From: an uncultured Pseudomonadota bacterium
Lineage (GTDB): Bacteria; Pseudomonadota; Alphaproteobacteria; Rs-D84
Length of the DNA: 38,217 nucleotides
NCBI GenBank assembly: GCA_902771695.1
Contig: CACXXP010000006.1
Location: 1-38,217, forward strand
Reading direction: 5' to 3'
Shown: one piece after another, positions 35,564-38,059 of the stretch
How the letters are laid out: the number at the start of each line of letters is the position of its first letter
Position numbering within the stretch: position 1 is the stretch's first letter
The notes under the pieces: generated by a model
Databases searched by the model: none
What the model was told of the DNA's origin: nothing
The model's input: only the letters and a program-made list of their open reading frames with translations
Program-made: the position numbers and the translations under genes

Positions 35564-35590
35564 AAAAAAACACCCAAACGGGTGTTTTTT
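35564..35590 (-). terminator. Intrinsic terminator of infC
   Basis: AAAAAACACCC / GGGTGTTTTTT, loop GTTT on the minus strand, followed by a T-run. It overlaps the infC stop codon. Confidence 0.92.
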
Positions 35591-36146
35591 ATTTTGCCGG
35601 TTTTGCCGGCGCGATTACTATCGATTTGGTTCGTTCGTCTGGTTTTGAACGGCTTTCCAATGTGCCACGTTCACCAATCAATTCAACGACGTGGGCAAAC
35701 AGCCCCGGAATTGCGTCTTTACCCATGGCCAGCGCCCTTTTTGACCCCTTGGTCATAACCGCAATTTTAACCTTGTCACCATTTTCCAAAAATTCATATA
35801 CTTTACGTAATTTGATCTGCAAATCATTTTCTTCTATGAACGGTTTTATCCAAACCTCTTTCATTTCAACGATTTTCTGCTTTTTTTTGGCTTCGGCGGC
35901 ACGTTTTTTCTGTTCGTATTTGAATTTTCCGAAATCCATTATTTTTGTCACAGGTGGTGTGGCATTTCCGTTTAATTCCACCAAGTCCATTCCCAAATCT
36001 AATGCCATTTGAATTGCATCAGATGTCTGCATTACACCAAGATTTTGACCATCATTGCTAATAACCTGAACAGTTTTTGCAATTATACGATTATTTGTGC
36101 GTGGTCCCATATCACGACGGTTATCACGATTATTTACTGGTTTAAT
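35589..36146 (-). CDS. infC: Translation initiation factor IF-3 (AUU start)
   Basis: A 185-residue factor that keeps 30S subunits free and checks the start codon. G-P-R-T-N-N-R-I opens the N-domain, V-T-K-I-M-D-F-G-K-F-K-Y-E-Q-K-K leads to the linker, and the C-domain has K-E-V-W-I-K-P and L-R-K-V-Y-E-F-L. The first in-frame ATG is at 36110, but AAAAGGAG stands six bases before an in-frame ATT at 36146, and the 12 added residues (K-P-V-N-N-R-D-N-R-R-D) match the basic N-terminal tail of the family. AUU starts are typical for infC and allow IF-3 to limit its own synthesis. rpmI and rplT do not follow. Confidence 0.92.
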   Translation of the reverse strand: MKPVNNRDNRRDMGPRTNNRIIAKTVQVISNDGQNLGVMQTSDAIQMALDLGMDLVELNGNATPPVTKIMDFGKFKYEQKKRAAEAKKKQKIVEMKEVWIKPFIEENDLQIKLRKVYEFLENGDKVKIAVMTKGSKRALAMGKDAIPGLFAHVVELIGERGTLESRSKPDERTKSIVIAPAKPAK

Positions 36147-36175: not shown

Positions 36176-36204
36176 AGTATTAAACATTTTTATAGATTTT
36201 TCAA
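36176..36204 (-). promoter_or_regulatory. infC promoter (probable)
   Basis: On the minus strand TTGAAA (36204-36199), 17 bases, AATACT (36181-36176). The -35 box lies inside the end of the UDG gene. The -10 is a weak match. Confidence 0.45.
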
Positions 36205-36933
36205 CAATTTTTGCACATTTTGCAGGACCGCCCAGACATCACGTTTTGTGTCTGGTTTCAATATGATATAATTCGGATGATATATTGAAAACACATGTAT
36301 ATTGTTTGGTAATATCGTTTCTGCACCGTGATTATGTATAAGGTCTATACCCGCAAATTCGGATGCCGCGATTGTTCCAAGTGTTATTATAATTCGGGGT
36401 TCGGTCAATTCTATGAACCTGTTCACAAATGGACGTGATAAATCCAATTCTGTGCGTGATGGTGTCCGCCCCCCAGGGGTCCGCCAAAACAACAATGGCG
36501 ATATTGAAACAGTTTCACGCGACATACCAATTGCCCCCATCATTTTATCCAGTAATTCACCCGCCCCCCCAGACAATATTTGCCCACATGCATCATCATC
36601 ACTGGACGGAATATCGGTGATTATCATTACTCCATTGGGATTCGTTGCGGCATGTGGCAAAACAACATTTGATACGCCGGTACGTAATGGATGATTAAAT
36701 TCCAAAATCATGCGCGATAATGAATCTATGGTTGTTGGACGCATGGCCATTGCGACCGCTGTATCCACAGACATTGGAACAACCGGTGATATCGGTGGCA
36801 CAACGCTTGCAACCGTGCGTGTGCGCTCTGGGGTTGGGGCTGGATGCGATATCATTTCATTAAAACCTATGGAATCATCAGATAATTCCCACCTTACACC
36901 GGCCAAAATAAGATCCTTTAACAAACTTTGCAT
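36190..36933 (-). CDS. Uracil-DNA glycosylase family protein (family 4-like)
   Basis: A 247-residue protein. Residues 1-25 match the helical start of alphaproteobacterial family-4 enzymes, about 30-65 is a Pro/Thr/Val-rich linker, and the glycosylase domain follows: M-I-I-T-D-I-P-S-S-D-D-D (motif 1 position), G-Q-I-L-S-G-G-A-G-E-L-L, I-S-P-L-L-F-W-R-T-P-G-G-R-T-P-S and I-Y-H-P-N-Y-I-I-L near the end. The four iron-sulfur cysteines of classical family 4 are absent (only one Cys in the chain), and motif 1 is T-D-I-P rather than G-E-x-P-G. It should remove uracil from DNA, but activity with the altered motif 1 is not certain. Confidence 0.75.
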   Translation of the reverse strand: MQSLLKDLILAGVRWELSDDSIGFNEMISHPAPTPERTRTVASVVPPISPVVPMSVDTAVAMAMRPTTIDSLSRMILEFNHPLRTGVSNVVLPHAATNPNGVMIITDIPSSDDDACGQILSGGAGELLDKMMGAIGMSRETVSISPLLFWRTPGGRTPSRTELDLSRPFVNRFIELTEPRIIITLGTIAASEFAGIDLIHNHGAETILPNNIHVFSIYHPNYIILKPDTKRDVWAVLQNVQKLLKNL

Positions 36934-37018: not shown

Positions 37019-37597
37019 ATGAAAATAAAAAACTTTGCTTTATTAGCTGGTGCTGCTGGGTTACTGGCGGCATGTGGTGGTTCAAGTGTTGTTGAACCAG
37101 AAGATTTGAACGGTCAACGCGTTTTCTTTGCGTTTAACTCTTCGGAAATTTCCGATGCAGCGCATGATAACTTGATGGGCCAAGCTCTGTACATGAAATC
37201 ACACGATGATGTAAAAGTACAGATTGCTGGTAACTGCGACGAACGCGGTTCAACAGAATACAACTTGGCATTGGGTGCACGTCGTGCAAACGCGGCCAAG
37301 AAAGTCCTTGTTGAAGAAGGTATCGATGCAAAACGTATTTCTACCATCTCTTATGGTAAAGAACGTCCATTGGTCAAAGGTACGGGAAAAAACGCCCGTT
37401 TGGGCGTTTTTTTTGCACAAAAACACCGGCAACGCCGGTGTTTTTTATATTTTATGGGCAATGATGCACGTGTCTTGGACCCCCGGCCACCCAAATTCAG
37501 TTTCGGGTTTAGAATACGTTTTTATAATTTCAAAATTATTTGCCCCCAGCATTGTTTCCATATCCTCTATACGTATTATATTAAAATCCGTCGTTAA
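37019..37597 (+). CDS. pal: Peptidoglycan-associated lipoprotein Pal with abnormal 3' end
   Basis: Residues 1-121 are clearly Pal: lipobox L-A-A-C (Cys19), V-F-F-A-F-N-S-S-E-I, A-G-N-C-D-E-R-G-S-T-E-Y-N-L-A-L-G-A-R-R-A and I-S-Y-G-K-E-R-P. Pal ties the outer membrane to peptidoglycan in the Tol-Pal system. After K-E-R-P-L-V-K-G-T-G the frame runs straight into an intrinsic terminator (37387-37414), and the final N-R-R-beta-strand segment (about 15 residues) is missing in all frames. No stop occurs until 37595, so the nominal 192-residue product has a nonsense tail. Either a real deletion or an assembly error. AAGGGAG precedes the ATG. Confidence 0.85.
   Translation: MKIKNFALLAGAAGLLAACGGSSVVEPEDLNGQRVFFAFNSSEISDAAHDNLMGQALYMKSHDDVKVQIAGNCDERGSTEYNLALGARRANAAKKVLVEEGIDAKRISTISYGKERPLVKGTGKNARLGVFFAQKHRQRRCFLYFMGNDARVLDPRPPKFSFGFRIRFYNFKIICPQHCFHILYTYYIKIRR
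37387..37414 (+). terminator. Intrinsic terminator inside the pal reading frame
   Basis: AAAAAACGCCC / GGGCGTTTTTT with GTTT loop and eight T. It begins at codon 123 of pal, before any in-frame stop. Confidence 0.9.
37418..37446 (-). terminator. Intrinsic terminator of the methyltransferase gene
   Basis: AAACACCGGC / GCCGGTGTTT with a three-base loop; T-run on the minus strand. It stands back to back with the pal terminator, four bases apart. Confidence 0.88.
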
Positions 37598-38059
37598 TGT
37601 GGTATTTAACGGCTCTGTGATGGTTATTTCACCAAGCTCCCCTGTGAATAACTCTATAAATAAAATTCCTTTATCCTGTAATATATGATTCAATTGTGCC
37701 AAACAATTTGAAACCTGGTTATTGGTTAAATGACATAATATATAGGACAATATTATACAATTAAACGAATTATTATTAAAATTCAATTGCGACACATCGC
37801 CCTGAATAAATTTTGCGTGTGATTTTTTATTTTTGGCGATGGTAAGCATATTATCTGACGCATCTATTCCGGTGACATTATACCCCAAATTTGATAAATA
37901 AACCGCATTATTACCCGAACCGCATCCCAAATCTAAAATTGCCGTTTCTTTTTCAACATATCTTAATAAATCTTTAATATGACATGATGGGGCGGAAAAT
38001 AATTTATCATACTCGTACGCGATAGAATCATAGGTCGAAACGTTTTTTCTTTTATCCAT
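37445..38059 (-). CDS. Class I SAM-dependent methyltransferase
   Basis: A 204-residue Rossmann-fold methyltransferase. Motif I is I-L-D-L-G-C-G-S-G-N-N-A, motif II is V-T-G-I-D-A-S-D-N-M-L, and a G-D-V-S-Q-L-N-F segment follows; the start T-Y-D-S-I-A-Y-E-Y-D resembles small-molecule or tRNA-wobble methyltransferases (Methyltransf_25/11). The substrate is unknown. Base use is visibly more AT-rich than neighbouring genes (many ATA, TTA, AAT codons), suggesting recent acquisition. A short TGGGA stands before the start. It converges on the truncated pal. Confidence 0.82.
   Translation of the reverse strand: MDKRKNVSTYDSIAYEYDKLFSAPSCHIKDLLRYVEKETAILDLGCGSGNNAVYLSNLGYNVTGIDASDNMLTIAKNKKSHAKFIQGDVSQLNFNNNSFNCIILSYILCHLTNNQVSNCLAQLNHILQDKGILFIELFTGELGEITITEPLNTTLTTDFNIIRIEDMETMLGANNFEIIKTYSKPETEFGWPGVQDTCIIAHKI

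Follow-up and report, generated by a model that had tools for sequence, protein, structure and literature searches.

Known Stop-Less Genes and Truncated Genes

Gene deletions that truncate the 3' end are ordinary events, met with in pseudogene formation or as truncated genes in draft genomes. Genes giving rise to mRNAs that lack a stop codon form another group. Ribosomes that reach the 3' end of such a non-stop mRNA stall there; trans-translation then frees them and marks the product for degradation (PMC3989581). According to the same source, the Escherichia coli arfA gene, which encodes a rescue factor, yields its non-stop form through RNase III cleavage or premature termination at a stem-loop. 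Model genes harboring an intrinsic terminator within their open reading frame have also been built on purpose in the laboratory (Keiler 1996, cited in PMC3989581).

The window analyzed here, a stretch of 38,217 nucleotides from a gut bacterium's draft assembly, carries a pal gene that can be compared to each of these. As in ordinary 3'-truncating deletions, conserved 3' codons and a stop codon are lost in a single genome while the neighboring genes are intact; unlike them, the frame is by chance open through two terminators, so that a transcript without a stop codon is predicted. With arfA, it shares a stem-loop, located toward the 3' end of the frame, that yields, or here would yield, a stop-less mRNA (PMC3989581). 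Unlike arfA, it encodes Pal, and its stop codon is missing from a single genome only. The non-stop mRNA, ribosome stall and tagging predicted for it are also those of the model genes, although the latter are laboratory constructs. The stop-less pal of the window reflects an ordinary deletion or an assembly error and no regulatory design.

The pal Reading Frame

The open reading frame at positions 37019-37597 of the forward strand comprises 192 open codons. Its 192-residue translation starts as a Pal lipoprotein (MKIKNFALLAGAAGLLAACGG) and contains SYGKERPLVKGTGKNARLGVFFAQKH. Codons 1-123 (37019-37387), which cover the lipoprotein signal and the larger part of the OmpA-like domain, are intact and agree with those of relatives, the identity to L036 reaching 96% over residues 1-125. 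The frame has two hallmarks of a Pal. The N-terminal motif LAACGG, presumably the lipobox, includes Cys19, invariant in 32/32 aligned sequences, and the OmpA-like domain (PF00691) is matched at residues 36-126 with a Pfam E-value of 2.8e-19. The intact L036 Pal matches known Pal chains in solved structures (best 2aiz_P, 2.2e-21).

The C-terminal end is different. Codons 118-123 read LVKGTG and are directly followed by KNARLGVFF, the in-frame reading of a first hairpin with its U-tract, which the frame enters at ~37386-37414. The first-pass annotation had claimed that pal runs into a terminator hairpin before any stop codon, and this is borne out: the next in-frame stop, a TAA at 37595-37597, sits downstream of a second hairpin (37419-37445). 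The last part of the frame (37415-37597, forward strand) is a non-native extension that would be translated only on read-through of both terminators. The Pfam OmpA alignment still includes KNARLGV and reaches profile position 93 of 98; we consider this similarity between terminator-encoded residues and the lost NRN segment fortuitous.

The same annotation had described the conserved C-terminal segment as missing in all frames, and as an N-R-R motif. Its absence stands, since the native tail has no match in the three forward frames of 37301-37700; the motif itself, however, is N-R-N in the relatives. Searched against the whole window, the corresponding DNA of L036 and L038 gives no more than chance matches (9-13 bases), whereas the N-R-x segment is present in 109/109 related loci. 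Predicted structures, built on shallow alignments, are of low confidence for both Pal proteins modeled (mean pLDDT 60.5 and 61.0). The intact control displays a helix at residues 124-133 (block means 64 and 67), and the tail of the window protein is modeled, with low confidence, as unstructured (block means 44, 32 and 27). This speaks, though weakly, against the idea that the new tail completes the Pal fold. The gene of the window is a pal by descent with a damaged end.

The Predicted Terminators Downstream of pal

The first hairpin (37386-37414, forward strand) resembles an intrinsic terminator, with 11 perfect pairs (12 with a G-U pair), a 4-nt loop and a U-tract. Folding gives a centroid energy of -16.5 kcal/mol, an MFE of -17.3 and a z-score of -3.5, none of 200 shuffled sequences being equally stable. 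The second hairpin (37419-37445, forward strand) folds at -15.8, with a z-score of -5.0 and again 0/200 shuffles equally stable. A simple terminator scan reports only the second; the first, we infer, does not fit the scan pattern because its stem extends into its T-tract. An identical or nearly identical first hairpin is found 3' of the intact pal in L036, L038 and L039, and a different one in L037; in L038 it is identical to that of the window, letter for letter, over AAAAACGCCCGTTTGGGCGTTTTTTTTGCACAAAAACACCGGC. The second hairpin is also found in L036-L039, and both terminators of L037 and L038 lie at the same place as in the window. A 24-base core of the first hairpin has one further exact copy in the own genome, and four more with 1-2 mismatches.

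A terminator close behind the pal stop is a feature of these compact genomes. In the two sets of related loci described below, a hairpin followed by T's occurs within 100 nt of the pal stop in 28/29 and 76/80 loci, and in these same proportions (28/29 and 76/80) the hairpin with its T-tract starts at most 54 nt after the stop. Elsewhere in the window, the stop codon of infC (minus strand, 35589-35591) shares one base with a terminator-like hairpin at 35566-35589. Stops can thus abut terminators here, and a small deletion can readily create a stop-less gene.

The pal Ending in Related Genomes

Two sets of pal loci were compared. A genome search provided 29 related loci, the 30th being the window itself, and a contig search provided 80, the best of 413 loci encoding a relative. 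The sets share 14 pal sequences, leaving 95 distinct ones among the 109 loci. A native-like tail (NRNATTTVK or a close variant) followed by a TAA stop is present in 29/29 and 80/80 loci, with protein lengths of 137-139 and 137-142 residues, respectively. The relatives of G000, the genome of the window (969 kb, 23 contigs, 93% complete), are mostly recorded as Alphaproteobacteria or proteobacteria, several of them from rumen or gut samples, and four of the 80 loci are recorded as 'Candidatus Enterousia'.

A wider comparison covers 142 genomes of the genus, in which the protein tail was read, the stop codon itself being read in the 109 loci of the two sets. With the intact L036 Pal as query, a close pal is found at 1e-50 or better in 135 of them, G000 included. 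Among the 134 others, 133 reach Pal residue 138 of 138 and one, at a contig edge, reaches residue 136; two match only from residue 29 onwards, lacking the first 28 residues. G000 is the only one of the 135 that ends at residue 125. A large protein collection was also searched, whose clustering at 90% identity may hide a same-species copy; with only the 7999 candidates sharing most words scored, 7976 matches were obtained. The ten best all have an intact ending, and no protein of length 192 occurs among the 120 matches listed. One of these, P0026, is 126 residues long and ends inside the tail, possibly at a contig end.

The Deletion Junction and Its Flanks

The loss can be located by spacing. 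From codon 121 to the [C/T]GCCC of the hairpin, 7/8 relatives measured have 61-63 nt and the window has 14 nt; the remaining one, L048, has 66 nt, counted from one codon earlier. The junction thus falls at 37386-37387 (forward strand), give or take a base or two, with 47-49 nt of the relatives missing. Very probably, a deletion of this size, seen in this assembly alone, removed the last pal codons and the stop, a statement that covers a true deletion and an assembly error alike. It would have fused codon 123 of pal to the foot of the gene's own terminator. Among the observations that temper this explanation, the nearest genomes compared are only ~80.5-83% identical to the window in the pal block, and the window has more private amino-acid changes than three of four close relatives (3 vs 1, 1 and 2).

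The flanks are native. From ~33.0 kb to its end (~5.2 kb), the window is colinear with L037 and L038, at 81.0% and 80.5% identity, respectively. The divergent upstream neighbor, a gene of the uracil-DNA glycosylase superfamily by Pfam (udg, minus strand, 36190-36933), is intact and matched in L036, L037, L038, L039 and L048, the match in L038 extending to residue 241 of 247. No gaps or frame breaks relative to L037 and L038 are seen in xseB, infC, udg, the methyltransferase gene and the part of mutS compared (~760/845 residues), which indicates that errors are not widespread in this part of the assembly. In L037, L038, L039 and L048, too, pal adjoins the uracil-DNA glycosylase gene, and infC and mutS lie farther away. 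The own genome has its TolB_N match on another contig; pal is not adjacent to tolB, and the usual tol-pal order is broken.

The convergent neighbor downstream (minus strand, 37445-38059) encodes a class I SAM methyltransferase (Pfam Methyltransf_11/25). A fresh deletion linked to this gene, taken to be foreign, had been proposed. The deletion is supported, the link is not: L037 and L038 have the same methyltransferase (~63% full-length identity) next to an intact pal. Judged by these sequences, it is no new neighbor of pal. The spot that it occupies is variable; the gene was not found in the compared DNA of L036, L039 and L048.

True Deletion or Assembly Error

A true deletion in the sampled cells is held to be somewhat the better bet and is ranked ahead of an assembly error, which is nonetheless a serious contender at rather less than even chances; this division is a judgement and was not computed. 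In the latter case, pal would be complete in the cells, and ~49 nt near the hairpin and A-tract would have been skipped by the assembler or in a chimeric read. Several observations are in keeping with such an error. The stop-less pal is seen in a single draft assembly, its junction adjoins the base of a strong hairpin whose 24-base core has an exact copy elsewhere in the same genome, and the protein collection has no 192-residue counterpart among the matches listed. Moreover, pal is conserved and usually important, so that a real loss should be selected against, and its remaining codons look about normally constrained. On the other side, the local assembly otherwise looks sound, with native flanks and without frame breaks in the neighboring genes compared. 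The breakpoints weigh against both possibilities: no direct repeat was found at them in the window, L036 or L038, which leaves a true loss without that explanation. Deletion via direct repeats was accordingly rejected.

Selection on the remaining codons bears on the age of the event. Compared with four close relatives, codons 1-123 of the window carry 5 synonymous and 3 amino-acid private changes; the relatives carry 5-7 synonymous changes and 1, 1, 2 and 4 amino-acid changes. There is no clear sign of relaxation in these few changes, which have low power and are compatible with some relaxation. Without a clear sign of long relaxed selection, the deletion is either recent or not real.

If the deletion is real, most pal transcripts would lack a stop codon, ending in the U-tract; ribosomes would stall and be rescued, and Pal, deprived of its conserved C-terminal segment, would be made in a truncated or tagged form that probably works poorly. 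The gene should then be seen as damaged, not designed, the open frame across the junction being taken as chance. This would make pal a naturally occurring example of stop-codon loss in an envelope gene that is usually important. In either case, an apparent arfA-like gene can arise by a small deletion beside a terminator located close behind a stop codon, and stop-less genes claimed from draft genomes should first be checked against relatives and reads.

A Proposed arfA-Like Design and Ribosome Rescue

The first-pass annotation had also raised a striking regulatory design resembling that of E. coli arfA. In such a design, pal mRNA would be stop-less on purpose and trans-translation would control the level of Pal. 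The window pal does have what an arfA-type gene has, a strong in-frame hairpin with a U-tract before any stop, followed by a second hairpin, and the rescue machinery is common among relatives: alpha-tmRNA is found in 16/20 genomes of the genus tested and SmpB in 176/191 genomes of the order. However, the arrangement is not conserved. Complete pal genes with the missing codons in relatives had been named beforehand as evidence against this reading, and they are what is found: 109/109 loci (95 distinct sequences) keep the tail and the TAA, 0/109 lack a stop, and the stop precedes the terminator region in every relative read. In addition, Pal is no rescue factor, and the window tail has no confident model (pLDDT 27-44 in the last blocks, from a shallow alignment). 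The design is refuted as a conserved, genus-wide feature. A version restricted to this species, in which trans-translation or stop-independent release sets the amount of Pal made from a stop-less mRNA and KNARLGVF replaces the native C-terminus, is very unlikely.

An assembly join had been suggested as well, and the part of this suggestion that stays plausible is the error within pal discussed above; a chimeric contig joining pal to an unrelated locus is highly improbable. The terminator core is indeed repeated in the genome, once exactly and four times with 1-2 mismatches, but the DNA past the junction corresponds to what naturally follows pal in L037 and L038, including the methyltransferase gene.

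As for rescue in the species itself, searches of the readable part of G000 (93% complete) detected no SmpB, no alpha-tmRNA and no second RF-1 family protein. However, 12,001 of the 19,001 bases of one stretch of this genome read N, so that absences of rescue genes there prove nothing, and a loss of ribosome rescue in this species was dropped as an explanation. The tmRNA region of the relative G076 matches the own genome mainly at one end, and the smpB neighborhoods of two relatives have no match in another own-genome stretch. All 78 genomes of the genus examined have at least one RF-1 family protein. In L145, ARAGORN reports no tmRNA, yet the Rfam alpha_tmRNA model matches full length in that G076 stretch.

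Second Pal-Like Genes and Possible pal Loss in the Genus

The tol-pal system is described as essential in Caulobacter crescentus and not in E. coli K-12 (PMC7391070). A second pal in the genome had been put forward for searching. G000 has four OmpA-domain matches, of which only the window pal matches the Pal query at an E-value of 0.001 or better. Its readable part thus yields no second close pal, and compensation by such a gene was rejected. The second Pal-like OmpA protein known from 19/34 other genomes of the genus (G001-G034), with 50-60% identity and frames mostly of 130-155 residues, likewise has no counterpart in this readable part. In G032 and G033, this second gene is present and the close pal is absent, possibly a replacement of pal by a paralogue. 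Altogether, a close pal at 1e-50 is missing from 7/142 genomes of the genus, among them G106, which is 99% complete. Along with the second Pal-like genes, these genomes suggest that loss of pal may sometimes be tolerated in the genus.
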